A DNA stretch of 64,000 bases from Arcicella aurantiaca (GTDB lineage: Bacteria; Bacteroidota; Bacteroidia; Cytophagales; Spirosomataceae): the NCBI RefSeq assembly GCF_003148625.1, contig NZ_QGGO01000002.1, forward strand, positions 247,475 to 311,474. The letters run 5' to 3'. The notes beneath the pieces were generated by a model that saw nothing but the letters and a program-made list of their open reading frames with translations, searched no databases and was not told the DNA's origin. How positions within the stretch are numbered: the stretch's first letter is position 1; every line of letters starts with the position of its first letter. Of the stretch, positions 1-64,000 are shown piece after piece. Both the position numbers and the translations under genes were made by a program.

Positions 1-533
1 GCATCTTTAGAGATTGAACCAAAGATTGCATAAGAAACTAAAGCAGGTCCAATTGTTCCTCCTAAGTTATTAACTGCACCACCTAAATTGATACGTTGAG
101 CACCCGTTTCTGGAGGTCCTAAAGCAATCATAAATGGCTGTGTTGCCGTTTGTTGTAATGAGAATCCAAGTCCAACAATAAACAAACCTGCAAGCAATAA
201 AGGATAAGAAGCCGTTTGAGCCGCAGGATAAAACAATAATGTTCCAATTGCCGAAATCAAAAGACCAATGACAATTCCGTTTTTGTAACCAATTTTATTC
301 AGAATATCCCCTCCCATAATACGTGAGAAAATTAAATAAAGCACAGAACCAATAAAATATGCCGCATAAAAAGCAAAGTCAACCAATTGAGCTTGGGTCT
401 GACTTAAAGCAAATTTTTCTTTGAATAAAGGTATTAATATTCCATTTGATGCTGCCACAAAACTCCAAAAAAACCAAACGGTCATTAAGGTGTACAGGGC
501 TGATTGATTACTTTTTGTTGATTGTTGTGTCAT
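1..533 (-). CDS. MFS transporter, FucP/sugar permease-like (partial, 3' end outside window)
   Basis: Reading the minus strand from the ATG at 533 gives an uninterrupted frame of about 177 codons that runs off the window edge. It begins MTQQSTKSNQ and continues into hydrophobic helices with segments such as LMTVWFFWSFVAASNGILIP and GLGFSLQQTATQPFMI, typical of the fucose:H+ symporter branch of the major facilitator superfamily. At least four membrane segments are visible. It is divergent from uxuA with 169 bp between them, which suggests uptake of a sugar or uronate that feeds UxuA. The substrate is inferred only from context. The C-terminal half is not visible. Confidence 0.8.
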   Translation of the reverse strand, partial: MTQQSTKSNQSALYTLMTVWFFWSFVAASNGILIPLFKEKFALSQTQAQLVDFAFYAAYFIGSVLYLIFSRIMGGDILNKIGYKNGIVIGLLISAIGTLLFYPAAQTASYPLLLAGLFIVGLGFSLQQTATQPFMIALGPPETGAQRINLGGAVNNLGGTIGPALVSYAIFGSISKD

Positions 534-702
534 GAAATTTAAAGTTTTGGGATAATTGATTAGAATTGAATCCAAATCTACTATTTTTCAAAGTAAAATT
601 TGTGCTTCTTTGCATCTATAATGAATATATTTTTAGGTTTTTGGGTAAAAACCAAAGAAAATTCTCTTTTATAATCATAAAACAAGTAATAAATTACATA
701 TT

Positions 703-1893
703 ATGCCCTTAGAACAAACTTTTCGTTGGTTTGGGACGAAAGACCCAGTACCATTAGCTCATATTCGTCAGGCAGGAGCAACAGGAATTGTAACCGCCCT
801 TCACCACCTTCCCAACGGTGTTATTTGGGGTATTGATGAGATACAAAATCGTAAAGCTGAAATCGAAGCAGCAGGTTTAAATTTTTCGGTTGTAGAAAGC
901 GTACCTGTACACGAAGACATTAAAAAGCGTTCGGGGAATTATCGTCAGTATATTGAAAATTACAAACAATCACTTATCAATTTAGGAAAAGCGGGTATTG
1001 ATACGGTTTGTTATAATTTCATGCCCGTTCTCGATTGGACTCGTACTGATTTGGACTATGCTTTACCAGACGGTTCAACAGCACTGCGTTTTGATGCTAC
1101 CGAATTTGCGGCTTTTGAAGTTCATATCTTGAAAAGACCAAATGCTGAAGCTAATTATACAGAAGCACAATTAGCAAAAGCGGGCGAATGGTTTGCTAAA
1201 GCCTCACAAGCACAAAAAGATAAATTGATTCGTAATATTATTGCAGGATTACCGGGAAGTGAAGAAAGTTTTACGGTAGAAGAATTTGCTCAAGTTTTGA
1301 AAACTTATGATGAAGTTGGCGATAAAGAACTGAGAAATAACTTGTACGATTTCCTTCGTGAAATTACGCCTGTTGCCGAAGAAGCAGGTATCAATTTAGC
1401 CATTCACCCAGACGACCCTCCTTTCCCGATTTTAGGTCTTCCACGTGTAGTAAGTACAGAAGCTGATGCACAACAAATTTTACAAGCCTACGAAAGTGCA
1501 AATAACGGATTGTGTTTCTGTACAGGAAGCTACGGCGTGCGTCCAGATAATGATTTAGTAGGAATGGTTGAACGCATGGGAAGCCGAATCAACTTTGTGC
1601 ATTTAAGAGCTACCAAAAGAGATATTGAAGGCAATTTCCACGAAGCCGACCACTTAGACGGCGATGTAGATATGTATGGCGTAATGAGAGCTTTGGTTTT
1701 GGAACAAAAAAGCAGAATTGAAGCAGGTAGAAAAGATTATCGTTTGCCATTCCGTCCTGACCACGGACACAGAATGTTGGACGACCTTAATCCAGAAAAA
1801 CGTACAAATCCGGGTTATACAGCCATTGGTCGCTTACGTGGTTTAGCAGAATTAAGAGGTTTGGAATTGGGGATTTTGAGAGGTTTGGAATAA
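703..1893 (+). CDS. uxuA: mannonate dehydratase UxuA
   Basis: 396 residues, the usual family length. UxuA dehydrates D-mannonate to 2-keto-3-deoxygluconate in cytoplasmic hexuronate (glucuronate) catabolism. The N-terminus ([20 protein letters not shown]) and the [12 protein letters not shown] and IHPDDPP segments are hallmark stretches of the TIM-barrel enzyme, as are the metal-site Cys and His in FCTGSYG and [11 protein letters not shown] and the C-terminal [11 protein letters not shown]. The ATG start directly precedes conserved sequence, so it is secure. Other hexuronate genes (uxaC, kdgK) are not in the window. The divergent MFS permease is the probable partner. A strong hairpin follows the gene. 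Confidence 0.95.
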
Positions 1894-1950
1894 AACGCTG
1901 ATGACGCTGATACTTCGTAACGCAGATTTAGAGGATTTTATCATTTCAGA

Positions 1951-1982
1951 GATTAGCCAACTTTTCAAAAAGTTGGCTAATC
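1951..1982 (+). terminator. hairpin terminator after uxuA
   Basis: Perfect 15-bp inverted repeat (arms 1951-1965 and 1968-1982, starting GATTAGCCAAC) followed by a short T-rich tail. It lies 57 bp past the uxuA stop. The preceding stretch 1893-1940 carries an 'acgctgat' motif repeated three times, like low-copy intergenic repeats. Confidence 0.7.
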
Positions 1983-2056
1983 TTATTTACTCAATGTTGG
2001 GCAAACAGACTTACCTATAAATTATTTCTTTCCTCTATTTTAAGCTAAATGGGAAG

Positions 2057-2383
2057 TCACCCAAATGATAAATTCACTCTTTTTCCTAATCCTTGCTCAA
2101 AAATTCGATAAAGGGTAGATATTTGAATATCACATTGACCGTTTTCAATTCTTGAAATATAACTTTTTTTAGTCCCTATTTTTACTGCCAACTCCTCTTG
2201 TGTCATTTTAGCCTCTTTACGAGATTCTTTTAACATCTCGCTAATAACAAAATATTGAGCTTTTTCTTCAAATACATCTCTATCGTGTGTTCCAATTTGA
2301 CCGTATTTAATATTTAAAAGTTCATCAAATGACTTCGCTTTTTTTAGTTTTTCGATTTCCATTTTCTTAAAGTTTTTGTTCAA
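2057..2383 (-). CDS. XRE-family antitoxin, HigA-like
   Basis: 108 residues with a C-terminal helix-turn-helix of the Xre/Cro type (about residues 57-105; KMTQEELAVKIGTKKSYISRIENG). Its start overlaps the end of the upstream toxin gene by 17 bp, so the two are probably translationally coupled. In HigBA modules the antitoxin binds the toxin through its N-terminal part and represses its own operon through the HTH. Toxin-before-antitoxin order is the usual higBA arrangement. I infer the function from the pair; the protein alone could be any small Xre regulator. Confidence 0.85.
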   Translation of the reverse strand: MNKNFKKMEIEKLKKAKSFDELLNIKYGQIGTHDRDVFEEKAQYFVISEMLKESRKEAKMTQEELAVKIGTKKSYISRIENGQCDIQISTLYRIFEQGLGKRVNLSFG

Positions 2384-2702
2384 AATACTCTTGCATTAAT
2401 TTTTCAGCCAACTCTATTTCTTTTTTAGGAGTCTTCTGTGTTTTCTTTTGGAAAGCATTAAAAAGAACAACTATTTTACCTTCATCAAAACAACAAAAAA
2501 TACGGTAAATATTACTCCCAACTTCTATTCTAACCTCATATAGCCCATCTGTACCTGTGAGATGTTTCAGAAATTTTTCTGGGACTCTTTCTATTGTCCG
2601 TATAATTGTAAAAACGTATTCTATCTTTTCTTGTACTTTCTGAGGTTGTTCAACATAGAAATCAATAAAATAATCTTCATGAAAAATAATAGTTCGTTCC
2701 AA
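2367..2702 (-). CDS. HigB/RelE-like toxin (Gp49 family)
   Basis: 111 residues of the phage-derived Gp49-like/HigB group, a RelE-fold ribosome-dependent mRNA interferase family. Visible signatures are LTGTDGLYEVRIEVGSNIYR in the middle and the C-terminal VLFNAFQKKTQKTPKKEI with the Ala-Glu-Lys helix that follows. The basic, aromatic-rich C-terminal half is where the RNA-cleaving residues lie in relatives. It is encoded first in the operon and overlaps its HigA-like antitoxin. No mobile-element genes flank it, but it sits between uxuA and uvrA, an accessory-looking spot. Confidence 0.85.
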   Translation of the reverse strand: MERTIIFHEDYFIDFYVEQPQKVQEKIEYVFTIIRTIERVPEKFLKHLTGTDGLYEVRIEVGSNIYRIFCCFDEGKIVVLFNAFQKKTQKTPKKEIELAEKLMQEYFEQKL

Positions 2703-2748
2703 AATAAAAAGTTATCTTTAAAGTTATCAAAAAATCAACAAATTACTA

Positions 2749-5652
2749 CTACACTTTCCCTTTCAAAAAGTCAGCCGTATAATTTCCTTCGATTTTTACC
2801 ATTGTTTCGGGTGTACCTTCAAAAGTGATATAACCACCTTTATCTCCGCCTTCTGGACCAATGTCAATAATATGGTCAGCCGATTTTATCACTTCCATAT
2901 TATGTTCAATGATAATGACCGAATCGCCCTGTTCTACCAAAGCATTGATGGCTTTCAAGAGTTTTTTGATGTCGTGAAAATGTAATCCTGTGGTCGGTTC
3001 ATCAAAAATGAATAAGGTTTTCCCTTTATTCGGATTTCCCTTTCCTAAGAAACTCGCCAATTTTACACGCTGTGCTTCTCCACCCGACAGGGAATTGGAC
3101 GATTGCCCTAATTTCACATAACCCAAACCAACTTCTTGCAAGGGCAATAATTTTTCCACCAATTTCGGTTGGTCTTTTCTAAATAAATCAATGGCATCAT
3201 CCACCGTCATATCCAAAATATCTGCGATGTCATTTTCATGATATTTTACGTCCAAAATTTCCTGTTTGAAACGCTTTCCTCCGCATGATTCGCATTTGAG
3301 TTTTACGTCTGCCATGAATTGCATTTCGATGGTTACAAAACCTTCTCCCTGACAAGTTTCACAACGTCCACCTTCTACATTAAACGAAAAATGAGCAGGT
3401 TTATATCCTCTTGATTTGGCAACAGGTTGTTCGGAATACAACAAACGAATTTGGTCATACGCCTTCACGTATGTAACTGGATTTGAGCGTGACGATTTCC
3501 CAATCGGATTTTGGTCAACCATTTCTACGGCTTCAATTTTACCGATACTGCCCGCCATTTCCGTAAATTTCCCTGATTCATCGGTATAAGTTCCTAAATG
3601 TCTTCCGATGGCAGGATACAAAATTTTACGTACCAAAGTCGATTTCCCTGAGCCACTCACGCCTGTAACAACCGTCAAAATGCCCAATGGAAATTTCACT
3701 GAAACGTCTTTTAAATTATTTTCATAAGCTCCTTTAATCTCTATAAAACTGGTTGATTTTCTACGGAATTTAGGCACTTCTATTTTATCCGTTCCATTCA
3801 AAAAGTTAATGGTGTGAGAATTATGAGGTGAACGGGATGCGTAACCTTGTGAATTGTGAATTGTGGCTTCTAACTCGGCATTTTCAAAACTTCCTTGAAA
3901 AACCAATTCTCCGCCATTTCGTCCTGCGTCTGGACCAATGTCTATAATTTGGTCAGCGGCACGCATTACTTCTTCTTCATGTTCAACTACCACAACGGTA
4001 TTTCCCATGTCTCGCAAAGATTCCAAAACCGAAACCAAACGTAAAGTATCTCTTGGATGCAAGCCAATGCTCGGTTCGTCCAAAATATACATGGAACCCA
4101 CCAAAGCACTACCCAAAGACGTAGCCAATTTTATCCGCTGGAATTCTCCTCCCGAAAGCGTTGAAGACAAACGATTGAGCGTTAAATATCCCAAGCCAAC
4201 CTTGTTCATATATTCTAAACGAGTTTCTATTTCTTGCAAAATTCGCTTAGAAACACCGTATTGATAATCAGCCAATTCGAGCGTATTGAAAAATTCCATT
4301 ACGTCTGAAATTGGCAATAAAACCAATTCAATGATTGATTTTCCGCCTATTTTCACATAACCTGCATCCTGACGCAAACGTGAGCCTTTACACTCAGGAC
4401 AAGTTGTACGTCCACGATAACGAGAAAGCATTACTCGGTACTGAATTTTATGGGTTTCGGCTTCCAACATTTTAAAAAACGCATCTAAACCGATAAAATA
4501 TTCATTGCCAGTCCATAAAACTGCTTTTTGAACATCTGTTAATTCTTTATAAGGACGATGAATTGGAAAATCAAACTTGGTAGCATTTTTAATAAGCGGA
4601 ATCAAATATTCGCTCATTTTTTCAGTTCTCCACGGAGCAATTGCCCCTTCGTAAATCGAGAGACTTTTATCTGGGAAAACCAAGTCTGGGTCAAGCCCCA
4701 AAATACGTCCAAAACCTTCGCAACGCTTACAAGCTCCGTAAGGATTATTAAAGCTAAAAAGGTTTAAAGAGGGTTCTTCAAAAGGAATTCCGTCAGCTTC
4801 AAAGCGGTCGGAAAACGATTTTGTTTCTCCACCCAGAATTTCGACAAAACAAGTTCCATCTCCTTCAAAAAAAGCAGTTTGAACAGAATCTGAAAGACGG
4901 AATTGCGTTTCTTCATCGGGTTGCCCGTCTTCTTCTTTCTTAACTGCCACACGGTCAATCAAGATTTTATAATTATTGGTGAATAGATTTATCGGAGGCA
5001 GACTCTTTAATTCTTCTTTATTGTCTAAAAGTTCTTCCAAAAATTTCGTCTCTCCATCAATCACAATTCTGGTATATCCTTTTTGCAATAATACCTTCAT
5101 TTCTTCGGCAAGTGTTCGTTCTTGTTTTAGAAATAAAGGGGACAAAATCATCACTCTTTGTGATTCTTCTAAGGTAAAAACATAATCAACCACACTCGAA
5201 ACGGTATTTTTTGTCACTTCGTTTCCAGAAATTGGCGAATATGTTATTCCAATTCGGGCGAAAAGCAGTTTTAAATAATCATAAATTTCGGTAGTTGTTC
5301 CAACGGTTGAGCGGGGGTTTTTCGTCGAAACTTTTTGTTCAATAGCAATAGCAGGAGAAAGCCCTTTGATGTAATCGACATCGGGTTTTTCCATTCTTCC
5401 CAAAAACTGACGAGTATATGAACTCAAACTTTCCACGTACATTCGTTGTCCTTCAGCAAAAAGCGTATCAAATGCCAAAGACGACTTTCCCGAACCAGAT
5501 AAACCCGTGATTACCACCAATTTATTGCGTGGAATGGCAACATCAATATTTTTTAGATTATTTACTCTCGCCCCTTTGATAAGGATAAAACGCTTTGGGT
5601 CAAGGTCTTCAATGGAAGTATTATCGTGATTCTTAATTTCAGTACTGTTCAT
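2749..5652 (-). CDS. uvrA: excinuclease ABC subunit A (UvrA)
   Basis: 967 residues from the ATG at 5652. An upstream in-frame ATG at 5805 would add 51 residues unlike any UvrA, so I chose 5652. UvrA is the damage-recognition ATPase of nucleotide excision repair. Seen: first Walker [10 protein letters not shown] near the N-terminus, the zinc modules CKRC and CPEC, ABC signature [12 protein letters not shown], second Walker [10 protein letters not shown], second zinc finger [14 protein letters not shown], and second signature [13 protein letters not shown] short variable linker lies before the second ATPase half. uvrB is encoded in the same window at 18.3-20.4 kb, unlinked to it. Confidence 0.97.
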
Positions 5653-5724
5653 GAATTTAGGGAGTGGTGATTTGGTTTTGGGGTTTAGAATTTTGCCCGA
5701 TAAATCACTGATAAATGAATTTAA

Positions 5725-5732
5725 CAAAGATA
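5725..5732 (-). promoter_or_regulatory. possible -7 box for uvrA
   Basis: Minus strand TATCTTTG matches the Bacteroidota -7 consensus TAnnTTTG, about 73 nt upstream of the chosen uvrA start. I see no good -33 TTTG at the right distance. Its position downstream of the longer ORF start also favours the 5652 start codon. Confidence 0.35.
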
Positions 5733-5897
5733 ATAAATTCTGAGATTGTTTTGTCAGAAGAATAAGGGCTTGCCACAATGAAATGTTCTTACTTAAAAGA
5801 GACACTTTTTCAGAAAAGAATGTTTCGTATCTTGCAAGAAATTATAAAAAAATTCGTTTAATCATAAATGTTTAAACGACTAATTATAACCAAAATC

Positions 5898-6470: not shown

Positions 6471-6475
6471 GAATT

Positions 6476-6718
6476 ATGTCTGAAAAGTCAAATCCGTTTG
6501 ATAATCTTCGTCCAATATTACTTTCGGTAATCATTGGTATTCTCCAATTATTCATTTGGATAGAGATTTTAGTTATTCTCGTGATGATGTATGCTTGGCA
6601 AAAAGATTCGGTTTCATTTACCCAAAATAGTACAGATAAAGGGCTAATTGTCTTGGTTATTGTTTTGATTTTGACGTATTTAGTAAAACGAAATATTCAT
6701 AAATTGTTGAAAAATTAG
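6476..6718 (+). CDS. small two-TM inner-membrane protein, unknown
   Basis: 80 residues with two predicted membrane helices (about residues 13-40 and 57-73) joined by a short polar loop, and a basic C-terminus (KRNIHKLLKN) that should stay in the cytoplasm. Only 5 bp separate it from the preceding barrel gene, so the two are probably co-transcribed; a strong hairpin ends the pair. I do not recognise a family. Confidence 0.6.
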   Translation: MSEKSNPFDNLRPILLSVIIGILQLFIWIEILVILVMMYAWQKDSVSFTQNSTDKGLIVLVIVLILTYLVKRNIHKLLKN

Positions 6719-40355: not shown

Positions 40356-40407
40356 CGTTATATATTTTTAAATTGAGTATATTTTTTCTAAAAACTAATC
40401 CTTATTT

Positions 40408-41010
40408 TTACTGATAAACCCCTATTCCACCCGAAATTCTAACATTTCTAAAGATAGGTTTCTTCTTGGGTTTAGGCTTTGGTTTTTCATAATAAGGTGT
40501 TTGTTCATGTTGTAAGTCTGGTGTAGTAGTCGTAAAATCCAAAGGGATTTGTTTTGGTGAAATTGGTGTAATAAAATCAACTGAATCTATGAGTATTTTT
40601 TCTACCTTTTCAGTTTGTATTTCCACTATTTGAGGCTCAACAATTGTTTCTTCTTTGGGAATAATTACTTTGGGAGTAGCTATTCTTTCTTTGGGTTTAA
40701 TAGCTATTATTTCATTCGTTTTAGACAAAATTTCTTCTTTTTTCTCTACAACAACTCGCTTATTTTCTATTGCTGGAAATGGTTTTATTTCCTCTTTATT
40801 TCCAACAAAATACCACAATGCAATGCTTAAAATCAATGCAGAAACGGCTCCCCAATAATAGGTTTGATTCCCTGATTTTGGTTGAATATTGTTGTCTAAA
40901 CTTACCTCAATCTTCTCCCAAACTCCCTCTGGAGGAGTCATAGAAGCATCATCAAAGGCATTTTGCCATTGCTCCTCGAAAGAATTATGTTGTAAATCGT
41001 CTATATTCAT
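40408..41010 (-). CDS. probable membrane anti-sigma factor
   Basis: 200 residues. Soluble N-terminal part (1-50; EQWQNAFDDASMTPPEGVWEKI, the typical start of Bacteroidota anti-sigma/OmpA-linked proteins), one membrane helix (about 53-68, WGAVSALILSIALWYF), then a long Lys/Pro/Glu-rich periplasmic stretch (EKPKPKPKKKPIF). Its start codon overlaps the sigma-factor stop by 4 bp, so synthesis is coupled. There is no canonical zinc HxxxCxxC, so anti-sigma activity is inferred from context and topology. Confidence 0.7.
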   Translation of the reverse strand: MNIDDLQHNSFEEQWQNAFDDASMTPPEGVWEKIEVSLDNNIQPKSGNQTYYWGAVSALILSIALWYFVGNKEEIKPFPAIENKRVVVEKKEEILSKTNEIIAIKPKERIATPKVIIPKEETIVEPQIVEIQTEKVEKILIDSVDFITPISPKQIPLDFTTTTPDLQHEQTPYYEKPKPKPKKKPIFRNVRISGGIGVYQ

Positions 41011-41534
41011 TTCACTGATAAAATTCCCTGTAAAATTGCCTTTGCTCGTGCATATTGCGATTTTGAAGTTCCTTCTGAAATATTCAACATTTCGGCAATT
41101 TCGTTGTGTTTATATCCTTCAATGGCAAATAAATTAAAAACCGTCTGACAACCCTTTGGTAGTTTTTGAATCATTTCAATTAATTCCTTAAAATGGATTC
41201 CTTCTATCCCCGATTGAAAATCACTAATCTGATTTTCATAATCTTGAATATCCCCCATATCCTGAAAATGTTGTTGCGAGCGTATTTGATTGATAGCGGT
41301 ATTCACCACAATTCGTTTAATCCAAGCCCCTAATGTACTTTCTGCACGAAATTTGTCTAAATTTTGGAAAATCTTGATGAAAGCTTCTTGCAAAATATCC
41401 TCAGCCTCAGCTTGACTTTGGGCATAGCGGTTACACACGACCAACATTCGCCCTGCGTAGGCATTATATAGCTTTCGTTGGGCATTTCGGTCATTTTGTA
41501 AACAGGCTTGTATAAGTTGAGCTTCGGTTTCCAA
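41007..41534 (-). CDS. ECF sigma factor (sigma-70 family)
   Basis: 175 residues. Region 2 (AEDILQEAFIKIFQNLDKFR) and region 4 (GYKHNEIAEMLNISEGTSKSQYARAKAIL) are complete. The start codon is TTG at 41534, since no upstream ATG lies in frame before a stop and region 2 begins soon after. It heads the operon sigma, anti-sigma, two lipoproteins, LVIVD, barrel on the minus strand and probably directs its own transcription. The control signal is unknown. Confidence 0.92.
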   Translation of the reverse strand: METEAQLIQACLQNDRNAQRKLYNAYAGRMLVVCNRYAQSQAEAEDILQEAFIKIFQNLDKFRAESTLGAWIKRIVVNTAINQIRSQQHFQDMGDIQDYENQISDFQSGIEGIHFKELIEMIQKLPKGCQTVFNLFAIEGYKHNEIAEMLNISEGTSKSQYARAKAILQGILSVK

Positions 41535-41640
41535 AGAAATTATAACATTTCAATCTTCATTTTTATAAAGACTCAATTTACTTTAAAACGGTTGGAATGA
41601 AGGTAAAATTTTCTATCAATAATTATCAAGGAGGTTTTGT

Positions 41641-41648
41641 TATCTTTG
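41641..41648 (+). promoter_or_regulatory. -7 box of the restriction-modification cassette
   Basis: TATCTTTG, a full consensus match, 32 nt before the TTG start of the first methylase. A seven-codon ATG reading frame (41660-41683) ends on the methylase start (GGTTGA), which might affect initiation. Confidence 0.5.
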
Positions 41649-41679
41649 TGGATATTTTCATGATAGCAAATAATAAAGG

Positions 41680-42594
41680 TTGAAAAATAAAGTAGCGAAA
41701 CCATTTTTAAAATGGGCAGGAGGTAAAACTCAATTAATCGGAGAAATAGAGAAAAATTTACCTTACGAAATGATGGGTCATAATTTTACTTATCTTGAAC
41801 CATTTGTGGGTAGTGGGGCTGTATTGTTTTGGATGCTCAACAATTTCCCGAAATTAGAAAAAGCTGTCATTTGTGATATTAATGAGGATTTAATCAATAC
41901 TTACCAAGTTATTGCATCAAATCCCAAAGAATTGATTTCTACTCTCTATCAGTTTCAAAACGAGTATCATTCTTTAGAAACAAAAGAAGAAGAGAAAAAG
42001 CAATACTATTATAACAAAAGAGACATTTATAATTTGAGGCAAACGGATAAAATTATCCAATCTGCATTATTTATTTTCCTTAATAGAACTTGCTTTAATG
42101 GTTTGTATCGTGTTAATCAAAAGAATGTGTTTAATGTACCTATGGGTGCCTATAAAATGCCTACAATTTGTGACGACGTTAATTTATTGGCGGTGAGTGA
42201 AGTCTTAAAGAAAGTTGAAATAATACACGGGGATTATGAAAAGTCGTTAGAATATGCTGAAAAAAACTCTCTATTCTATTTTGACCCTCCTTACAAACCA
42301 TTAAGTAATACTTCATCTTTCAATTCTTATGCAAAAGATGTTTTTGATGATAATGAACAAATAAGATTAAGAGATTTTTGTTCAAAGTTAAATATCTTAA
42401 AACACAAATGGATATTAAGTAATTCAGACGTTAGTGGAGAAAATACAAACAATGATTTCTTTGATAAAATATATGATAATTTCTTAATCAAGAGGGTGAA
42501 AGCCAAAAGAAGTATTAATGCAAATGCTTCAAGAAGAGGAGAATTAAATGAGTTATTAATCACAAATTTTAATATGATTTTAGAATATGCTTAG
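41680..42594 (+). CDS. Dam/DpnM-like DNA adenine methyltransferase (GATC type)
   Basis: 304 residues from a TTG start; no ATG lies upstream before the SAM-binding motif KPFLKWAGGK (7-16). Alpha-class N6-adenine methylase with PFVGSGAV (41-48), a target-recognition segment typical of Dam (FLNRTCFNGLYRVN, 133-146, followed by FNVPMG) and catalytic DPPY (202-205). Relatives methylate GATC on double-stranded DNA. First gene of a three-gene cassette; its end overlaps the nuclease gene by 8 bp. The region looks more AT-rich than its neighbours. Confidence 0.93.
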   Translation: MKNKVAKPFLKWAGGKTQLIGEIEKNLPYEMMGHNFTYLEPFVGSGAVLFWMLNNFPKLEKAVICDINEDLINTYQVIASNPKELISTLYQFQNEYHSLETKEEEKKQYYYNKRDIYNLRQTDKIIQSALFIFLNRTCFNGLYRVNQKNVFNVPMGAYKMPTICDDVNLLAVSEVLKKVEIIHGDYEKSLEYAEKNSLFYFDPPYKPLSNTSSFNSYAKDVFDDNEQIRLRDFCSKLNILKHKWILSNSDVSGENTNNDFFDKIYDNFLIKRVKAKRSINANASRRGELNELLITNFNMILEYA

Positions 42595-43285
42595 TAGTAA
42601 AGCCATAACAATATTAACACCCCTTTTTAAAATAATTGAAGAATCAAAAGGTAAGACTATTGGTGAAATTAAGTCATTATTAAACCATGAGAGAACCAAT
42701 ATGAAAAAAGGGGCATCAGGTTTAATTGTTGAAACATTATTAGGAATTAAAAATAACAATAACGCAGATGCCGATATTCCTGAAATTGGTTGTGAAGTTA
42801 AAATTTTACCTATTCAAAAAAATAGAAATGGTGAAGTAAAAGTAAAAGAACCCACTCAAATTCAGATGATAAACTATTTTGAAGTAGCAAATGAAAAGTG
42901 GGAAACAGCTAAAATCAGAAAAAAAATTACCCTAACTTTTTGGATTGTTTACTTAGCTAAAGAAAATAGCAAGTCACTTAATCAAGATGACTATAAAATC
43001 ATTGACTACTTTATTGATCATCCAAATGAGTATAAATTACAGATTTTTCAGAGAGATTGGGAAGCAATACAATCATACATAATAAATGGCTTAAGTGATA
43101 AATTATCATGTAGCATGGGCGAATATATTGAACCTAAAACAAAAGGAGCGAACAATCAAGATGTAACAAACGCACCTGACGGAAAGGGTGGAATATTAAA
43201 AGCAAGGAGAAGAGCATTTTACTTTAAAAAGAAGTACACTAACTCTCAAATTATACCCAATATTGACTTAAAGACTCTATTGTAA
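42587..43285 (+). CDS. MutH/Sau3AI-family endonuclease, single-domain
   Basis: 232 residues, the length of MutH and half of Sau3AI. The alignment to E. coli MutH by eye is convincing: GKTIGEIKSLL, KGASGLIVETLLG, catalytic Asp63...Glu70-Val-Lys72 (MutH D70, E77, K79), WETAKIRKK, RDWEAIQSYII, GEYIEPKTKGAN and the C-terminal RAFYFKKKYTNSQII. These enzymes cut unmethylated GATC. Its setting between two GATC-type methylases argues for restriction and not MutL-dependent repair, but a nicking role cannot be excluded. It contains the only GATC I found in the window (43016-43019). Confidence 0.9.
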   Translation: MLSSKAITILTPLFKIIEESKGKTIGEIKSLLNHERTNMKKGASGLIVETLLGIKNNNNADADIPEIGCEVKILPIQKNRNGEVKVKEPTQIQMINYFEVANEKWETAKIRKKITLTFWIVYLAKENSKSLNQDDYKIIDYFIDHPNEYKLQIFQRDWEAIQSYIINGLSDKLSCSMGEYIEPKTKGANNQDVTNAPDGKGGILKARRRAFYFKKKYTNSQIIPNIDLKTLL

Positions 43286-43289
43286 ATTA

Positions 43290-44168
43290 ATGATTATACC
43301 TTTCTTTAGCTCTACTGATAAAAACTTTAATCTCCTTCAAGGTGATTCTACACAACTATTGCCACAATTCGAGCATAAATTTGATATGGTTTTCGCAGAC
43401 CCTCCTTATTTTTTATCAAATGGAGGATTATCTATTCAAAGCGGGGAAATTGTTAGTGTAAATAAAGGAGATTGGGATAAATCTCAAGGGCTCACTTTTA
43501 TACACGACTTTAATAGAAAATGGCTTTCATTAGTTCGAGACAAAATGAAAGAAGATGGAACAATTTGGATAAGTGGGACAATGCACAATATTTTCTCTAT
43601 TGGGCAGATTCTCATAGAATTAGATTTTAAAATACTGAATATTATTACTTGGGAAAAAACAAATCCCCCTCCCAATTTTTCATGTAGGTATTTTACCCAT
43701 TCAACTGAACAAATAATTTGGGCTCGTAAAAATGTAAAAACACCACATTTTTACAACTATGAACTTATGAAAAGGTTGAATGGAGATAAACAAATGAAAG
43801 ATGTTTGGACGTTACCAGCTATAGCTCCTTGGGAAAAATCGTGTGGTAAACACCCTACACAAAAACCTTTATCTGTTTTAACAAGACTTATATTAGCTTC
43901 AACTAAACAAAACGCATGGATACTCGACCCTTTTACAGGAAGTAGCACTACGGGAATTGCCGCAAATTTAACAAATAGACGATTTTTGGGAATAGACCAA
44001 CAATTAGATTTTTTAGAAATCAGTAAGAACAGAAAAATAGAAATTGAGGACTTAAAAATAAGAAATATATACAAGCAAAAGCTGAGTGGATTTAGTGAAA
44101 AAACACAACTTGACCAATTTCTATTAAATGAACCACAAATAGCTTATCAATCAGAATTATTATTTTAG
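43290..44168 (+). CDS. DpnA-like DNA methyltransferase (beta class)
   Basis: 292 residues, close by eye to M2.DpnII (DpnA): FADPPYFLSNGG (35-46, DPPY 37-40), NKGDWDK, FNRKWL, FSCRYFTHSTEQIIWARKN, KQMKDVWTLP, GKHPTQKPLSVL and the SAM motif LDPFTGSSTTGI. DpnA can methylate single-stranded GATC DNA, which in Streptococcus protects transforming DNA from the co-resident nuclease. A 4-bp gap follows the MutH-like gene and 1 bp separates its stop from gatB, so gatB may depend on the cassette transcript. Confidence 0.92.
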   Translation: MIIPFFSSTDKNFNLLQGDSTQLLPQFEHKFDMVFADPPYFLSNGGLSIQSGEIVSVNKGDWDKSQGLTFIHDFNRKWLSLVRDKMKEDGTIWISGTMHNIFSIGQILIELDFKILNIITWEKTNPPPNFSCRYFTHSTEQIIWARKNVKTPHFYNYELMKRLNGDKQMKDVWTLPAIAPWEKSCGKHPTQKPLSVLTRLILASTKQNAWILDPFTGSSTTGIAANLTNRRFLGIDQQLDFLEISKNRKIEIEDLKIRNIYKQKLSGFSEKTQLDQFLLNEPQIAYQSELLF

Positions 44169-44169
44169 A

Positions 44170-45624
44170 ATGAAACAAGAAATCAGAGATAAATACGAAG
44201 TCGTTATTGGCTTAGAAGTACACGCTCAGTTACAGACTGAAAGTAAAATTTTTGCGGCTGATGCTGCCTCTTTTGGCGGTTTGCCCAATACGCATATTTC
44301 ACCTATTACGCTCGGACATCCAGGTACGCTTCCGAAACTCAATCGTAAAGCAGTAGAATATGCCATCAAAATGGGTTTGGCTTGCAATTCTCAAATTACT
44401 GAAAACCAATATTTCGACCGTAAAAATTATTTCTATCCTGACCTCCCAAAAGGTTATCAAATTACGCAAGATAAAACCCCAATTTGTATGGGTGGTGGCG
44501 TGAAGGTAAAGCTTTCGACGGGCGAAAAAACAGTTCGTTTTCATCATATTCATTTAGAGGAAGACGCTGGAAAATCGCTTCATGCAGAGGGTTCAACTGA
44601 TAGTTTGATTGACTACAATCGTGCTGGAACGCCATTAATTGAAATGGTTACTGAACCCGAAATTAAATCTGCCGAAGAAGCCGCTACTTTTATGAATGAG
44701 GTTCGTAAATTGGTTCGTTATTTAGGTATTTGCGACGGAAACATGGAAGAAGGTTCGCTACGTTGTGATGTCAATATTTCGGTAATGCCTGTTGGTAGCA
44801 AAGTATTTGGTACAAAAGTTGAAATCAAGAATATGAACTCAATGCGTTTTATCCAAAAAGCTATTGAATATGAAGTGGTTAGACAAATTGATGCCGTAGA
44901 AAATGGAGAGAAATTAATTCAAGAAACTCGTAGTTTTGACCCTGCAACGGGACGTACTTCGGGTATGCGTGAAAAGGAAACCCAAAACGATTATCGTTAT
45001 TTCCCTGAACCAGATTTAGTGCCTTTGACTATTTCAGAAGCATGGCTTTCGGAAGTGAAAAACATGATGCCCGCTTTGCCTTGGGAGCTTTTTGAGAAAT
45101 TTACGAAGCAATATAATTTACCAGAATACGACGCTAACGTTTTGACTGAAACTCGTGAAGTAGCAGAATATTTTGAAGCAACTTCTCAGTTTACCAAAAA
45201 CTACAAAGCGGTTTCCAACTGGATTATGGGTACGGTGAAATCTTACTTAAACGATAATAATTTAGAAATTGGTCAATTAACCGTTACTCCCGAACGCTTG
45301 GGAGCATTGATTAATCTGATTGACGAAGGAAAAGTAAGTACGTCAACTGCCGCACAGCAAATCTTCCCAGAGTTGGTACAAGATTCGAGCAAAACACCTT
45401 TGCAAATTGCCGAAGCAAAGAATCTAATTCAGCAAAGCAATACCGATACACTTCAATCGTTAATTGATGAGGTTTTAGCAAATAATCCTGCTAAAGTAAA
45501 AGAATACAAATCGGGTAAAAAAGGACTTTTAGCAATGTTCATGGGCGAAATCATGAAAAAGTCAAAAGGTTCTGCCGACCCAAAAGTTACAACGGCATTA
45601 TTGCAAAAAACATTAGAAATGTAA
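44170..45624 (+). CDS. gatB: Asp-tRNA(Asn)/Glu-tRNA(Gln) amidotransferase subunit B
   Basis: 484 residues. GatB is the kinase-like subunit of the GatCAB amidotransferase that makes Gln-tRNA(Gln) and Asn-tRNA(Asn) from mischarged precursors. Signature segments: VIGLEVHAQLQTESKIF, YPDLPKGYQITQ, LRCDVNISV, and the C-terminal YqeY-like tail (EYKSGKKGLLAMFMGEIMKK). gatA and gatC are elsewhere. It begins 1 bp after the DpnA-like stop; no separate promoter is visible in the spacer. Confidence 0.96.
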   Translation: MKQEIRDKYEVVIGLEVHAQLQTESKIFAADAASFGGLPNTHISPITLGHPGTLPKLNRKAVEYAIKMGLACNSQITENQYFDRKNYFYPDLPKGYQITQDKTPICMGGGVKVKLSTGEKTVRFHHIHLEEDAGKSLHAEGSTDSLIDYNRAGTPLIEMVTEPEIKSAEEAATFMNEVRKLVRYLGICDGNMEEGSLRCDVNISVMPVGSKVFGTKVEIKNMNSMRFIQKAIEYEVVRQIDAVENGEKLIQETRSFDPATGRTSGMREKETQNDYRYFPEPDLVPLTISEAWLSEVKNMMPALPWELFEKFTKQYNLPEYDANVLTETREVAEYFEATSQFTKNYKAVSNWIMGTVKSYLNDNNLEIGQLTVTPERLGALINLIDEGKVSTSTAAQQIFPELVQDSSKTPLQIAEAKNLIQQSNTDTLQSLIDEVLANNPAKVKEYKSGKKGLLAMFMGEIMKKSKGSADPKVTTALLQKTLEM

Positions 45625-46956: not shown

Positions 46957-47343
46957 ATGACTAATAAAATAGCCAATCACAAAAGCTATTCTTTTGCTTT
47001 AAGAATAATCAAACTCTATCAGTTATTGTCGAAAGAAAAACAAGAATATGTTATTTCAAAACAAATATTGAGAAGCGGAACCGCTATTGGGGCGTTAATT
47101 CGTGAAGCTGAATGTGCAGAAAGCAAAGCAGATTTTATTCATAAATTAGCTATTTCCAATAAAAAAGCGAACGAAACACATTATTGGATTATGCTTTTGA
47201 GAGATAGCAATTTGATAGATACTAAATTAGCCAACTCTTTTCTCCTTGATTGCGAAGAATTACAAAAACTGCTTAATTCAAGTATAAAAACAGCCAAAAC
47301 TAATCTAAAAACAATTAAAAAAGATAATGAGAATCAGAAATAG
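46957..47343 (+). CDS. four-helix bundle protein (23S rRNA intervening-sequence protein family)
   Basis: 128 residues of the S23/IVP-type four-helix bundle family: KSYSFALRIIKLYQLL, SGTAIGALIREAECAESKADFIHKLAISNKK (split around the conserved Arg and Glu) and ANETHYWIMLLRDS are family signatures. These small proteins form basic pentameric bundles and are often found as accessory genes. Function is unknown; nucleic-acid binding is suggested. It lies alone between the TlpA-like gene and proC. Confidence 0.88.
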   Translation: MTNKIANHKSYSFALRIIKLYQLLSKEKQEYVISKQILRSGTAIGALIREAECAESKADFIHKLAISNKKANETHYWIMLLRDSNLIDTKLANSFLLDCEELQKLLNSSIKTAKTNLKTIKKDNENQK

Positions 47344-47393: not shown

Positions 47394-48194
47394 ATGAAAG
47401 TAGCCATCATCGGAGCAGGAAATATGGGTATGGCATTTGCCAAGTCATTCATCCAATACGAATTAGTAAAAAAAGAAAACCTTTTTTTGATTGAAAAAAA
47501 TGCCGAACGTGCTGAAGCTCTTCGCCAAGAAAAAGCAGGCGTTGTCATTGATACTATTTCTCCTAAACTCGGAGAATATGATTTGATAATTTTATCGGTT
47601 AAACCACAAGATTTCGCTTCCTTAAAAGACGAGCTTGCGTCTGTTATCCAGCCTAACCAATTGGTTTTGAGCATCATGGCAGGTATTTCAATTGATAAAA
47701 TCAAAGAATCCCTCAATCATAATTTAGTAGTACGTGCAATGCCTAATACACCTGCATTATTAGGTATGGGTATGACGGCATTCTCGGCAGCAGGAGATAT
47801 TACTTTAAGTCAATTAAAGAAAGTAGAAAACCTTATCAACTCAACCGGAAGAGCCGTTTTCTTAGAAGATGAAAGCCTTTTAGATGCTGTTACAGCAGTG
47901 AGTGGAAGTGGTCCTGCGTATTTCTTCTACTTAGTAAAAGCAATGGTTGAAGCAGGAAAAGAATTAGGGTTTGAAGACTCAATGGCTTCATTATTAGTGA
48001 AACAAACAATGTTAGGTTCGTTTCATTTGATTAATAATTCCGAGAAAAGTTTAGATGAATTAATTAAAGCTGTTGCTTCAAAAGGAGGAACGACAGAAGC
48101 AGCCTTGAAACGTTTTGAAGAGGGTTTATTAGCTCAAAACCTCAAAGAAGGTATTTTTGCAGCACAAAAAAGAGCAACCGAACTTTCTAAATAG
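47394..48194 (+). CDS. proC: pyrroline-5-carboxylate reductase
   Basis: 266 residues. ProC reduces P5C to proline with NADPH. The N-terminal Rossmann motif is VAIIGAGNMGMAFAKSF, and the C-terminal signature VTAVSGSGPAYFFYLVKAM is complete, as is TSKGGTTEAAL-type ASKGGTTEAALKRFEE. The start is secure. The proA/proB genes are not in the window. Confidence 0.95.
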   Translation: MKVAIIGAGNMGMAFAKSFIQYELVKKENLFLIEKNAERAEALRQEKAGVVIDTISPKLGEYDLIILSVKPQDFASLKDELASVIQPNQLVLSIMAGISIDKIKESLNHNLVVRAMPNTPALLGMGMTAFSAAGDITLSQLKKVENLINSTGRAVFLEDESLLDAVTAVSGSGPAYFFYLVKAMVEAGKELGFEDSMASLLVKQTMLGSFHLINNSEKSLDELIKAVASKGGTTEAALKRFEEGLLAQNLKEGIFAAQKRATELSK

Positions 48195-56795: not shown

Positions 56796-56796
56796 C

Positions 56797-57607: not shown

Positions 57608-57775
57608 AATAAAAATATTTTAAGAAATTACATTACAATATTAAGAAACAGGGCATTAAAATTGTTTAAAACTCAATAATTAATCGTAAAACAATTAAAA
57701 GTTTATTCATTACATTTTTGCACTTTTCTAATATCATCAACAATATTCAAAAACAATCTCAATCAACAATTTAAA

Positions 57776-58915: not shown

Positions 58916-58974
58916 TACTTGTATTATGATTATGGTACACAGATTAAACGGATTAGACACGGATTGAAATAATA

Positions 58975-59132
58975 GACTTCTTGCGAAAGTCCTGTATGAT
59001 TGAAAAATAGTGATTTTTTGAGCGAAAATTAGGTAAATTTTGAAAGCATAGCAGAGCTACGGTTGAAAAATTTACCTAATTTGTAGCCCAAAAAGTGCTT
59101 ACTTTCACCTTAAAGGACTTTTGCAAGAGGTC
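58975..59132. mobile_element. MITE-like element inserted inside a palindromic repeat
   Basis: 158 bp with imperfect terminal inverted repeats (GACTTCTTGCGAAAGTCCT against AGGACTTTTGCAAGAGGTC), flanked by TAATA on both sides (58970-58974 and 59133-59137). Inside is a nested inverted pair (AGGTAAATTTT/AAATTTACCT) and the motif GCATAGCAGAGCTACGG (59046-59062), shared with the element at 29294. The flanks are two halves of another palindrome (GGTACACAGATTAAACGGAT... and ...AATCTGTTCAATCCGTGTACC), so the insertion split it. Confidence 0.7.
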
Positions 59133-59186
59133 TAATATGTAAAATTTAAAATCCGTGTCTAATCTGTTCAATCCGTGTACCATTTT

Positions 59187-60467: not shown

Positions 60468-60608
60468 TGAATTAATATGTATTTCTACAAAATTAACTGA
60501 TTATGAGCTTCATATATTATGTAATATTTTCTTTAGCTATTCTTTTATCTTAATTTGGAATAATTTTTGAAACATTCCTGCTTATAAAACCCATAATATC
60601 AACCTAAT

Positions 60609-62561
60609 ATGTCGAAGAAAAACAAGGCTCCCCAACCACCAACGCCAAAATCTAAAAATCTTGATAATCAACATCATGAAGCAAAAACACAAAATCCTAA
60701 AATTTGGTTTTGGACTTGTATTGGCGTATTGGTAATTGCCGTTTTCATTGCTTTCTCAGGCGGTTTCAATAATAACTTTGTCTCTTGGGATGACGGTGCT
60801 TATGTAACCGAAAATACAATTGTGCAGAAGCCTAACGGCAATTGGGGAAAGGCTTGGACAACCCACGTTGCTCTCAACTATCATCCGCTGACAATCACGT
60901 CTTTAATGTTAAATTCGGATATTTTTGGAACTGATAACGCTCGTCCATTCATCGTTACAAATACTCTTATTCACTTATTAAATGCCTTATTGGTCTTTTG
61001 GTTTGTGCTTTTGTTGCTTAAAAATAAAGATGAAGAAAATATTCCAATTACGGGGAAACCGCTTTTTGTGGCGTTTTTTACGGCTTTGGTTTTTGCTATT
61101 CATCCTCTAAAAGTAGAATCTGTCATTTGGGTTTCTGAACGGAAAGACGTGCTTTATAGCTTATTTTTCCTTTTGGGCTGTATCAATTATTTGAAATATT
61201 TGCACAATCCTCAAACAAAAAAATACCTGACTTATAGCTTTTTATTATTCATTCTTTCATGTTTATCGAAAGGACAAGCGGTGGTTTTCCCTGTTGTATT
61301 GTTGCTTTTAGATTATTGGAACGACCGCAAATTTGACACAAAAACCATCATCGAAAAAATTCCGTTTTTCTTGATTTCTTTACTTTTCGGGGTAATTGCC
61401 TCAAGCATACAAGCGGGCGATAATTTTTATGGATTAATCAAAAGTCTTGACAATGGAAATTATGTTGCCGTAAACACTCAGCATAATTTATGGAACGGGA
61501 TTAAATATTCAGCTTATGGTTTGTCGCAATATTGGGTAAAATTCTTTTTTCCGTACAGTTTATCGTCATTTTATCCTGTAACATTGTGGAAACAAGGACC
61601 ACTTCCTTATAATTTTCCGTTTGGGTTTGTCTTTACCTTATTTGTTTTGGGTGCATTTGTTTATGGTTTTAAGAAATCAAAAGCGATATTTTTCGGAATT
61701 GCCTTCTTCGGAATTACTTTCTTTTTAGTATCACAAATTTTATTGGTTGGTGGAGCAATTATGGCAGACCGTTATACCTATTTGCCGTACATCGGATTGG
61801 CATTTATGGTGTTTTATTTTCTGGCAGATATTTTTGAAAAGGGTAATTCTCAGAAATATGGATTGTTAGCCATTCTAATAGGATTTATGCTTTTCTTTGT
61901 GATAAAAACTCGAAATCAAGTTAAGGTTTGGGAAAATACCAGAACTTTAATGACCCAAAGAGTAGATTTATTGCCTGCCGATGATAGAGCTCATTATAAC
62001 ATTGCAAAATATTCTGGCGAGAAAGAAAACAACTACGATTTATGTATTAGCGAATATCTAAAATGCCTCGAAAATACCGATTCTACGCAATTGATTGATG
62101 TTTGGGCAAATATTGCAACGGCTTATTCTTTGAAAGGAGATTACCCAAAAGCCATTGAATATTATACTTCTTCTATCAAAAAAGAGCCTAAAGTAGGTGT
62201 ACATTACATGAATCGAGGGTTTCAATATTTAAAAACTCAACAACCCGAAAAAGCACTTCCCGATTTAGAAAAAGCAAGTGTGATGACCATGAAAAAAGAA
62301 GATAGAGCTTCTGTTTTTGGCGGTTTAGGTACGGCACAATTGAACGTGGGCAAAGCAGCAGAAGCCTTTAATAATTTGAATATTGCCATTGACAAAGAAG
62401 GCAGTAAAGATGCTATTCATTATTTTAATCGTGGCGTGGCTCGGCTTAAACTTTTCAATGATAAAACTGGGGCATTGGCAGACGTTAAAGCAAGTTTAAA
62501 AATTAATCCAAATTATGCAGATGCTTTAAATGGATTGAAGGTTTTGGAAAGTGCGAAGTAA
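60609..62561 (+). CDS. TMTC-like membrane glycosyltransferase with TPR domain
   Basis: 650 residues: a cytoplasmic N-terminus of about 30 residues, then about 11 membrane helices with GT-C motifs (SWDDGAYVTEN with the acidic pair, ALNYHPLTITS, FAIHPLKVESV, SERKDVLYS, MADRYTYLPYIG), then three or four TPRs (about 495-650). The architecture matches bacterial relatives of TMTC/protein O-mannosyltransferases. Probably transfers a sugar from a lipid donor to periplasmic or secreted proteins; the actual acceptor is unknown. Isolated gene. Confidence 0.82.
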   Translation: MSKKNKAPQPPTPKSKNLDNQHHEAKTQNPKIWFWTCIGVLVIAVFIAFSGGFNNNFVSWDDGAYVTENTIVQKPNGNWGKAWTTHVALNYHPLTITSLMLNSDIFGTDNARPFIVTNTLIHLLNALLVFWFVLLLLKNKDEENIPITGKPLFVAFFTALVFAIHPLKVESVIWVSERKDVLYSLFFLLGCINYLKYLHNPQTKKYLTYSFLLFILSCLSKGQAVVFPVVLLLLDYWNDRKFDTKTIIEKIPFFLISLLFGVIASSIQAGDNFYGLIKSLDNGNYVAVNTQHNLWNGIKYSAYGLSQYWVKFFFPYSLSSFYPVTLWKQGPLPYNFPFGFVFTLFVLGAFVYGFKKSKAIFFGIAFFGITFFLVSQILLVGGAIMADRYTYLPYIGLAFMVFYFLADIFEKGNSQKYGLLAILIGFMLFFVIKTRNQVKVWENTRTLMTQRVDLLPADDRAHYNIAKYSGEKENNYDLCISEYLKCLENTDSTQLIDVWANIATAYSLKGDYPKAIEYYTSSIKKEPKVGVHYMNRGFQYLKTQQPEKALPDLEKASVMTMKKEDRASVFGGLGTAQLNVGKAAEAFNNLNIAIDKEGSKDAIHYFNRGVARLKLFNDKTGALADVKASLKINPNYADALNGLKVLESAK

Positions 62562-62573
62562 AGGGATAAGATT

Positions 62574-62649
62574 GATATTTAGTAGGGACGAATAGCATTC
62601 GTCCAGCTCCAGAACCACGGGCGAATGCTATTCGTCCCTACTAAATATA
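62574..62649. repeat. 28-bp perfect palindrome after the TMTC-like gene
   Basis: Perfect 28-bp arms containing TAGTAGGGACGAATAGCATT (62574-62601 / 62622-62649) with a 20-nt loop. The core GGCGAATAGCATTCGCC-type sequence also occurs at 21341. Probably a shared terminator between convergent genes and a dispersed repeat. Confidence 0.8.
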
Positions 62650-62673
62650 TCAAATTCAATTATCAGAATATTT

Positions 62674-64000
62674 TTAAAACCCCAATCTAAAAATCGTTCC
62701 CTCTCCTTCTATTGAATGAACCGAAATTGTTCCTTTATGAAGTGTCATAATTTGCTTCGACAAACTCAAGCCAATACCTGAACCGTTTGGCTTAGAGGTA
62801 AAGAAAGGCACAAAGATTTTATCCATCAAATCAGGCGACATACCTATGCCATTATCACGCACTTCAATAACGGGTCGTTCGTCTTGTCCTCGATAAGTTG
62901 AAAGTATAATCTTAGGATTTTCTTGATTTTTTACGGCATCTATTGCATTGATAATCAAATTAATAAGCATTTGTTCCACCAAAACCATATCCCCTTCAAT
63001 AGTCAATTCAAAGTCTTTAATTACGACATCAAATTCAATATTTTTCTGTTCAATTTGATTTTCTAAAAGAATTTCTACGCCTTCAAAAAGGTCATGTACA
63101 AAAAAATCTGAGAAAGAAGTTATCGAAACTTTAGCCAATTGACGATACGTATCTGCAAATTTCAGTAGGTTTTCACTACGTTTGCGAATCGTGGAAATTC
63201 CTAAAACAATATCATCAAATTGTGCATTTTCAGTATTCAATTTTTCATTAGCTTGACCATTATGGTGCAAAGTTTTCTCAATTGTTTCTGCTAATGAGGC
63301 AATCGGAGCAACAGAATTCATAATCTCATGCGTCATTACTCGCAAGAGTTTTTGGTAAGCCTGAGCTTCGGTGTCTTCAATGGCTTCATTGACGTTCTGA
63401 AAAGCAATTAAATTGGTTTCAACATCTTCATTTAAAAAAGTGGTTTTTGCTAATAAAACTTGTTTTTGATTAATCTTCACCAATTGGCTATCACCATTTT
63501 CAAGATTCATAATTACCTGATAAACAACTACATCACGTTTTTCTAAGGAAGAAATATTCCGCAAATACGGCACATTCATCATGCGTTTGAACGACTCATT
63601 TATCCAACCAACTTCACCTTCTTGGTTATACGAAAGAATACCCGTATCAACCAATTCTAAGATTTTTTGGAGATACTGATATTGCTCTTCTCTTTCGGAA
63701 GATAATTGCTTGAAAGTAGAATTGATTTGGTTAAAAGCACGACGAAGTTGTCGAACAGAAACAGGAGCGTTTTTCTCGGTAAATTGTAAAGAAAAATCTC
63801 GATACCGAACCGCCTCAATAAATTGTGAAAGTTCGATATTGGTTTTATTAATGAATTGTACGAAGTTAAATATTTGGAAAACAAGCAGTAATATGGCAAA
63901 TACCAACAATGAATATTTAGCCATCACAATACAAAAAGCGGCTACCGTGATGCTGGCAAGCAACAAAACAACCCGAATGGTCAGACTGATTTCATAGCGA
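62674..64000 (-). CDS. sensor histidine kinase, NtrY-like (5' end outside window)
   Basis: At least 442 codons; the frame stays open to the window edge, so the first residues and possibly a TM segment are missing (visible RYEISLTIRVVLLLA precedes). Two membrane helices, a HAMP-like/coiled region, a PAS-like domain (about 95-195), then the phosphoacceptor in RVMTHEIMNSVAPI and ATPase motifs NLIINAIDAV, RDNGIGM and GSGIGLSLSKQI. The MTHEIMNS box is that of NtrY/NtrB-like kinases of Bacteroidota, which normally pair with a sigma-54-type (Fis-AAA) regulator, not seen here. Confidence 0.88.
   Translation of the reverse strand, partial: RYEISLTIRVVLLLASITVAAFCIVMAKYSLLVFAILLLVFQIFNFVQFINKTNIELSQFIEAVRYRDFSLQFTEKNAPVSVRQLRRAFNQINSTFKQLSSEREEQYQYLQKILELVDTGILSYNQEGEVGWINESFKRMMNVPYLRNISSLEKRDVVVYQVIMNLENGDSQLVKINQKQVLLAKTTFLNEDVETNLIAFQNVNEAIEDTEAQAYQKLLRVMTHEIMNSVAPIASLAETIEKTLHHNGQANEKLNTENAQFDDIVLGISTIRKRSENLLKFADTYRQLAKVSITSFSDFFVHDLFEGVEILLENQIEQKNIEFDVVIKDFELTIEGDMVLVEQMLINLIINAIDAVKNQENPKIILSTYRGQDERPVIEVRDNGIGMSPDLMDKIFVPFFTSKPNGSGIGLSLSKQIMTLHKGTISVHSIEGEGTIFRLGF

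Follow-up and report, generated by a model that had tools for sequence, protein, structure and literature searches.

Results

The GATC cassette and its insertion upstream of gatB

The stretch of Arcicella aurantiaca DNA analysed here, which we call the window (64,000 nt; contig NZ_QGGO01000002.1, positions 247,475-311,474, forward strand), carries a GATC restriction-modification cassette inserted directly upstream of the host gene gatB (Table 1), and is otherwise free of the sequence GATC. By program count the word occurs once, at 43016-43019 inside the nuclease gene of the cassette, exactly where a first-pass annotation made from the letters alone had placed it. Composition leads one to expect 211 occurrences, close to the roughly 200 of that annotation, while first- and second-order Markov models give 188 and 166, and each of 60 second-order simulations of the window contained 144-196. 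The related tetramers GATA, GATG and GATT are frequent, as had been said (314, 213 and 456 occurrences).

Table 1. Features of the cassette and its junctions in the window
Feature	Coordinates	Strand	Evidence or remark
ECF (extracytoplasmic function) sigma factor, host gene, left junction	41007..41534	-	next to gatB, with no cassette between, in G088, G105, G036 and G097
Inserted GATC restriction-modification cassette	41601..44168	+	ends 1 base short of the gatB start codon
Dam/DpnM-like N6-adenine methyltransferase (D12 class)	41680..42594	+	TIGR00571 E 1.9e-85; PF02086
Single-domain MutH/Sau3AI-superfamily endonuclease, 232 aa	42587..43285	+	PF02976 E 6.5e-21; PADLOC REase_II
Second N6/N4 methyltransferase, DpnA-like	43290..44168	+	PF01555
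gatB, host gene, right junction	44170..45624	+	NF004014 E 2.4e-201

In its methyltransferases the cassette resembles a DpnII-type system. The closest solved structure to the product of the first gene is the DpnII methyltransferase 2dpm, which we take to be DpnM, and the second gene, called DpnA-like because of its place in a GATC cassette, has copies that are 76-78% identical in the cassettes of four other genomes (77-78% in G036, G050 and G066; the fourth is G118). The nuclease gene that sits between them is where the resemblance ends, as its product belongs to the MutH family and the DpnII-family endonuclease profile PF04556 has no match in the genome. Among solved structures the 232-residue nuclease matches Sau3AI (4pxg) and MutH. 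Yet it scores 127.8 bits for the NCBIfam Sau3AI equivalog (cut-off 300) and is shorter than the two-domain length of that entry, and it reaches 92.9 and 104.9 bits for the MutH equivalogs (cut-offs 229.9 and 243). Sau3AI itself is a chain of 509 residues with two stretches that match the query, the better of which aligns over residues 36-230, whereas the protein here is a single domain of the same MutH-fold family.

The cassette is a local insertion. The ECF sigma factor gene adjoins gatB without it in G088, G105, G036 and G097, and in the closest relative (locus L039, which matches G088) the segments on either side of the insertion (40385-41600 and 44169-45623) have 174 bp between them. No cassette genes were found upstream of gatB in any of the six testable congeners, for each of which ~1.5 kb was fetched; in the seventh, G065, the contig stops 8 bp upstream of gatB. 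Farther downstream in the window, a gene for a 23S rRNA-intervening-sequence (four-helix bundle) protein (46957-47343) lies between a thioredoxin-like gene and the open reading frame (ORF) 47394-48194.

GATC is depleted throughout the genome

In a sample of 654,660 bp, consisting of the window and 30 further stretches (~11% of the 5.93-Mb assembly), GATC was found 32 times where 1738 were expected, and the depletion is therefore genome-wide. The sample is not random, as 2,000 bp are counted twice (the overlap of L025 and L121) and eight stretches had been chosen for GGATCC or for C5 methyltransferases; removing the overlap gives 32/1732, and removing the eight stretches, which leaves 504,000 bp, gives 14/1314 for GATC and 1/687 for CTAG. 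Some of the residual sites lie in tRNA genes (two for Lys, one for Arg), in the genes for ribosomal proteins L2 and L14, in pheT and in restriction genes, and no single rule for the locations emerged from the sample. Six of them fall within 1.5 kb in a gene for a 601-residue protein with an HSP90-like ATPase domain (L137:10217-12022, contig C42), which is perhaps a recent acquisition.

Many words besides GATC are missing

The first-pass annotation had treated the depletion as peculiar to GATC, and had named similar depletion of several unrelated palindromes as the observation that would speak against this; such depletion is present in the window itself. Relative to a second-order Markov expectation, CTAG (0/82), CGCG (0/54), GCGC (1/58), CCGG (10/96) and GGCC (15/110) are scarce or missing, as are the degenerate words GTMKAC (0/26) and RCATGY (1/31). 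Of the palindromes that had been proposed for comparison, CTAG thus shares the fate of GATC, while GTAC (148/158) and CATG (130/161) are ordinary. The genome sample gives the same result for the tetramers (CTAG 2/891, CGCG 2/424, GCGC 5/497, GGCC 104/1006, CCGG 126/776) and extends the set to longer and degenerate words: GTMKAC 4/278, ATGCAT 1/180, CGTACG 1/75, CATATG 2/132, CTTAAG 3/163, GATATC 9/130, RCATGY 21/337, CTRYAG 30/267, GDGCHC 53/414, GGNNCC 130/802 and CCWGG 134/574. In all, 24 non-nested symmetric words fall below 0.25 of expectation in the sample, namely GATC, five other tetramers and 18 further words, in a list from which nesting was removed by hand and whose members were picked with the data already seen. 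Against a reference set of 366 distinct 4-6-letter sites from the Bio.Restriction list, many of them nested, 49 of 366 have an observed/expected ratio (O/E) below 0.1 in this genome, compared with 22 of 363 in G036 and 63 of 365 in G052. Hexamers below 0.02 of a base-composition expectation number 114 of 3648 in our sample, chiefly through the loss of six tetramers; in G052 the figure is 93 of 3648.

The missing words spell degenerate restriction sites, and most of their near neighbours are normal. For GTMKAC, the members GTAGAC (0.04), GTATAC (0.00) and GTCGAC (0.00) are gone, with GTAAAC (0.97), GTACAC (0.95) and GTCCAC (1.26) intact; for RCATGY, ACATGC (0.07), ACATGT (0.06) and GCATGC (0.04) are depleted, and ACATGG (1.00), CCATGC (0.92) and GCATGA (0.93) are not. 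Only 21 of the 1893 non-palindromic hexamers tested lie below 0.3, and of these 13 are symmetric at two of their three pairs, seven hold a symmetric pentamer and the last is the BsaI site GGTCTC. Among gapped pairs of dinucleotides, four symmetric ones lie below 0.4 (GGN2CC, CCN2GG, GGN1CC and CCN1GG), all of them listed restriction sites, as against none in 2400 asymmetric tests.

Palindromes might be avoided in general, on account of DNA structure or regulation, since a mild form of such avoidance is seen in most bacteria (PMC4687349; PMC10359461) and is visible here in GTAC, CATG, AGCT, TCGA, TGCA and ACGT, with O/E of 0.68-0.79. We regard this as a most improbable explanation: depletion across the 64 hexamer palindromes is not uniform, many of them being normal (against a third-order expectation, AACGTT 1.01, CACGTG 1.29, TCATGA 1.10, and also CAATTG), and in degenerate sites the scarcity extends from the palindromic members to those that are not palindromes. 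The depleted set also differs between congeners, as the following section describes for CTAG and AGTACT.

Congeners share the loss of GATC and differ in other words and in nucleases

All seven sampled congeners are GATC-poor, with O/E of 0.00-0.24 (G036 159/1390, G052 96/1416, G065 0/16, G077 14/64, G088 3/55, G097 17/83, G105 9/38), where the last five samples are small (6,942-27,602 bp) and consist partly of methyltransferase loci. The loci L039, L040 and L043, which by identical match lengths and identities are apparently G088, G077 and G097, were left out of this count. As these genomes are poor in GATC though none of those testable has the cassette at gatB, the depletion either predates its insertion or arose independently of it. 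Other words vary: CTAG is nearly absent here and in G052 (O/E 0.002 and 0.01) and half retained in G036 (0.48), AGTACT is depleted here (0.17) and in G052 (0.29) and raised in G036 (1.44), and GRCGYC stands at 0.27 here, 0.29 in G036 and 0.00 in G052. G052 further lacks CCSGG (6/267), AAGCTT (11/183) and GAAN4TTC (20/212), as well as CTNNAG (95/1035; the same half-sites with gaps of 1 and 3 occur 955 and 962 times; L032, L033, L172-L191). CTNNAG is not a site in the Bio.Restriction list and is possibly an unreported restriction specificity.

Three types of GATC nuclease can be recognised in the genus by sequence family: the MutH/Sau3AI-like enzyme of A. aurantiaca, a predicted DpnII in G036 and a predicted methyl-directed DpnI in G052. 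In G036, G050 and G066 a DpnII-type nuclease is flanked by both methyltransferases, 70-78% identical to those of the window. In G036 a 184-residue ORF with no Pfam match (L157:11261-11815) separates it from the DpnA-like gene. G118 has both methyltransferases (67 and 76% identical) with a weak MutH-like gene just upstream, and the 10.7-kb contig fetched from G117 has a Dam-like gene and DpnII, with no DpnA-like match. In G052 the genes for DpnI and for what we take to be DpnD directly precede a DpnA-like copy that is broken into three frame segments, and a D12 methyltransferase has no match in the genome; the partner names DpnD and DpnA are in part those of Pfam. This DpnI was seen because its locus was among those examined, and the evidence on DpnI is confined to G052. 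No flank shared by the GATC loci of G036 and G052 was found beyond the methyltransferase; the A. aurantiaca cassette lies at gatB.

That one GATC-cutting nuclease, the one in the window, removed GATC specifically is what the presence of a real cassette built from GATC families, with the only GATC of the window in its nuclease gene, would at first suggest. It is very unlikely given how many unrelated words are missing as well, and given that GATC is scarce in all seven sampled congeners, the six testable ones of which lack the cassette upstream of gatB, and that a MutH-family nuclease was found in only one of eight genomes of the genus. The original suggestion of nuclease-driven selection nevertheless holds in a broader form, in that restriction-type selection is the best explanation and GATC cassettes do turn over; what the data do not support is its restriction to GATC and to this cassette.

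GATC was lost largely through synonymous change

In 419 predicted ORFs, GATC was seen 22 times where 1325 were expected given the protein sequence, so that its loss is largely synonymous. Aspartate before C is written GAC 872 times and GAT 15 times, compared with 2075 GAC and 6035 GAT before other bases, and isoleucine ATC after a G is seen in two of 1595 cases. Codon independence without regard to protein order gives a higher expectation, 1509, and there may therefore be a small effect on amino-acid pairs. DNA outside ORFs is equally depleted (10/378).

A purely mutational origin, in which methylated sites mutate faster by deamination of 5-methylcytosine and restriction has no part, would fit the presence in several depleted words of cytosines that C5 methyltransferases modify, the six C5 matches in the genome, and the raised frequency of some transition neighbours (AGCC 1.25, ACGC 1.15, CCGA 1.15). 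However, GATC, CTAG, GTATAC, ATGCAT and CATATG are depleted just as strongly, other transition neighbours show no rise (GCAC 0.81, CCAG 0.87, CGCA 0.76), and the highest neighbours are transversions (ACGG 1.38, CTAC 1.36, GATA 1.32, CGCC 1.32). Although this neighbour test is a crude genome average, distinct from a substitution spectrum, we give such an origin very little credence.

Breadth of depletion compared with other genomes

A panel of 125 sites was applied to the gatB region (11-21 kb) of named genomes, in which 74 of 80 loci were long enough. Of the 71 loci that are not Arcicella-like, 52 have at most 5%, and 61 at most 10%, of testable panel sites below 0.3, and the highest share, 33%, belongs to Emticicia aquatilis. 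In the three Arcicella-like loci the share is 25-31%. Stretches of 16-20 kb gave medians of 30% in our genome (n=30, 20-38%), 23% in G036 (n=22, 6-30%) and 34% in G052 (n=22, 29-44%). Over the whole genome, ATGCAT occurs 25 times, the lowest count per Mb among 150 family members; TGATCA (31) and ACTAGT (3) rank fifth and fourth lowest among 392 phylum genomes, of which this is the only one with both words among the five lowest. Genome sizes were rounded for these ranks, which were taken by hand from counts per Mb uncorrected for G+C. The ranks imply that near-absence of GATC alone is not unique.

Other restriction systems in the genome

By family, the genome encodes one nuclease of NgoPII type (GGCC) and one of EcoRV type (GATATC), each paired with a methyltransferase, and depletion is seen for both words; GATC, GGCC and GATATC are the words for which family membership identifies a nuclease in the genome or its close relatives. 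An MmeI-like enzyme is present as well, along with three methyltransferases whose neighbours are specificity genes of HsdS type, and there are further methyltransferases. We recognise 13 methyltransferase genes of Type II class (six C5, one of them short; three D12; one N6_N4; two Eco57I-class; one MmeI-like), a count that leaves ~5 further N6-type matches unclassified.

At L119:7502-9446 (contig C1), a C5 methyltransferase whose closest solved structure is M.HhaI overlaps a 332-residue ORF, a candidate nuclease that matches nothing in Pfam, NCBIfam or PADLOC and nothing credible in the PDB, and that gave an uninformative single-sequence structure model (mean predicted local distance difference test score, pLDDT, 34). 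At L121:7362-11820 (contig C4), two C5 methyltransferases accompany an HNH nuclease, which resembles phosphorothioate-DNA restriction enzymes with a score below cut-off, and a SocA/MqsA-type regulator; the methyltransferase pair has an 88-90% identical copy in G052 (L248).

Restriction systems need not have acted from within. Those of neighbours may have destroyed incoming DNA, so that exchangeable DNA lost the sites that the community cuts. The 24 avoided words outnumber the 13 methyltransferase genes, DpnI and DpnII types both occur in the genus, and such a pressure has been proposed for GATC in species with DpnI and DpnII (PMC4687349). Further systems may, however, hide in methyltransferase families outside our searches, a ribosomal-protein stretch (L026) retains slightly more GATC (4/53), and GATC is as rare outside ORFs as within them, although this last point is compatible with either force. 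Exchange pressure is a possibility to be taken seriously, if the less probable one.

Discussion

Avoidance of Type II restriction sites was reportedly described by Gelfand and Koonin in 1997. In that phenomenon, as here, symmetric or known recognition words lie strongly below a composition-based expectation (here a Markov one), and we consider it very probable that this genome is an extreme case of it, produced under long-lasting pressure as numerous Type II systems were gained and lost. The lineage, a genus with named Arcicella members, would long have carried, lost and exchanged such systems. Whenever methylation fell short of covering what a nuclease could cut, chromosomes poorer in its targets would survive better, and sites would be removed in consequence, mostly by synonymous changes. 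At GATC three kinds of nuclease may have been involved, MutH/Sau3AI-like, DpnII and DpnI, the last of which, by family, cuts the methylated form; swaps between such incompatible systems would be dangerous for a chromosome with GATC sites and nearly harmless for one without. Self-cleavage at gain, loss or swap, more than restriction of exchanged DNA, would then presumably have been the main force, acting over a time scale that may be long.

Several observations weigh against this account, or at least against a simple version of it. For the majority of depleted words, including the most strongly depleted (CTAG, CGCG and ATGCAT), no nuclease was found, and CTAG is underrepresented in most genomes irrespective of restriction systems (PMC4687349). 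G036 has only one of 2688 hexamers below 0.02 of base-composition expectation, and GATATC, the EcoRV word, is depleted in G052 too (24/105), a genome without a D12-class match. When the half-sites are trinucleotides, 156 asymmetric gapped words out of 39,959 tested fall below 0.4, although 13 of the 14 listed contain one of the short symmetric words. Finally, the first-pass annotation had proposed to test whether depletion follows the cassette through the phylogeny, and within the family the presence of a nuclease does not predict loss of GATC: G121 (0.68) and G140 (0.72) carry a MutH-domain nuclease of Sau3AI length and are barely depleted, while G001, in which no member of the MutH or DpnII family was detected, has 0/51 GATC in 20 kb. 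Among carriers in other genera the ratio runs from 0.00 (G117) to 0.72 (G140), and no simple link from nuclease to depletion was found.

Much of the underlying phenomenon has been described. In Rusinov et al. (2015; PMC4687349), Type II sites are underrepresented, also as traces of lost systems shared by related genomes, and of 42 genomes that have DpnI-like systems 38 avoid GATC, so that site avoidance, its persistence after system loss and the DpnI-type link at GATC are not new. What is unusual is the breadth and depth of the avoidance, and the unlisted missing word CTNNAG in G052. The threshold used in that paper was Kr ≤0.78, whereas several words here have O/E of 0.002-0.02 and 24 lie below 0.25, by a Markov measure that differs from Karlin's Kr. 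Microcystis aeruginosa and Crocosphaera, with many restriction enzymes, also lack palindromic hexamers (PMC2442094), where 6, 12 and 6 hexamers fell below 0.02 of a shuffled expectation; the corresponding 114 of 3648 here differ in sample size and method. A limited literature search, which leaves absence unproven, found no report of such a pattern in Arcicella.

The arrangement at GATC recalls the pneumococcal alternation in which related bacteria have either a DpnII-type or a DpnI-type system (PMC4687349), as the genus has apparently both a methyl-directed system (G052) and a methyl-sensitive one (G036). It differs in that a third, MutH/Sau3AI-like nuclease lies between conserved methyltransferases, in that the systems differ between species of the genus, and in that GATC is nearly gone from the genome. 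It was proposed in the same source that removal of GATC permits exchange between strains that cut methylated and unmethylated DNA, and this genus offers a direct test of that idea.

In many cases the avoidance of sites shows up as a fainter statistical signal. In this genome several words are all but absent and many are strongly depleted, so that the sequence by itself reveals complete recognition sites, degeneracy included, and comparable genera could help to predict the specificities of uncharacterised enzymes. About two dozen missing words, together with three types of GATC enzyme, look like a register of the restriction defences that the lineage has encountered. It is a tentative thought, for which we would claim somewhat less than even confidence, that the lineage has become transparent to restriction, its missing words forming a catalogue of specificities (unlisted ones such as CTNNAG in G052 among them) and its communal Type II targets so far purged that incompatible systems may be gained, lost or swapped with little self-damage.

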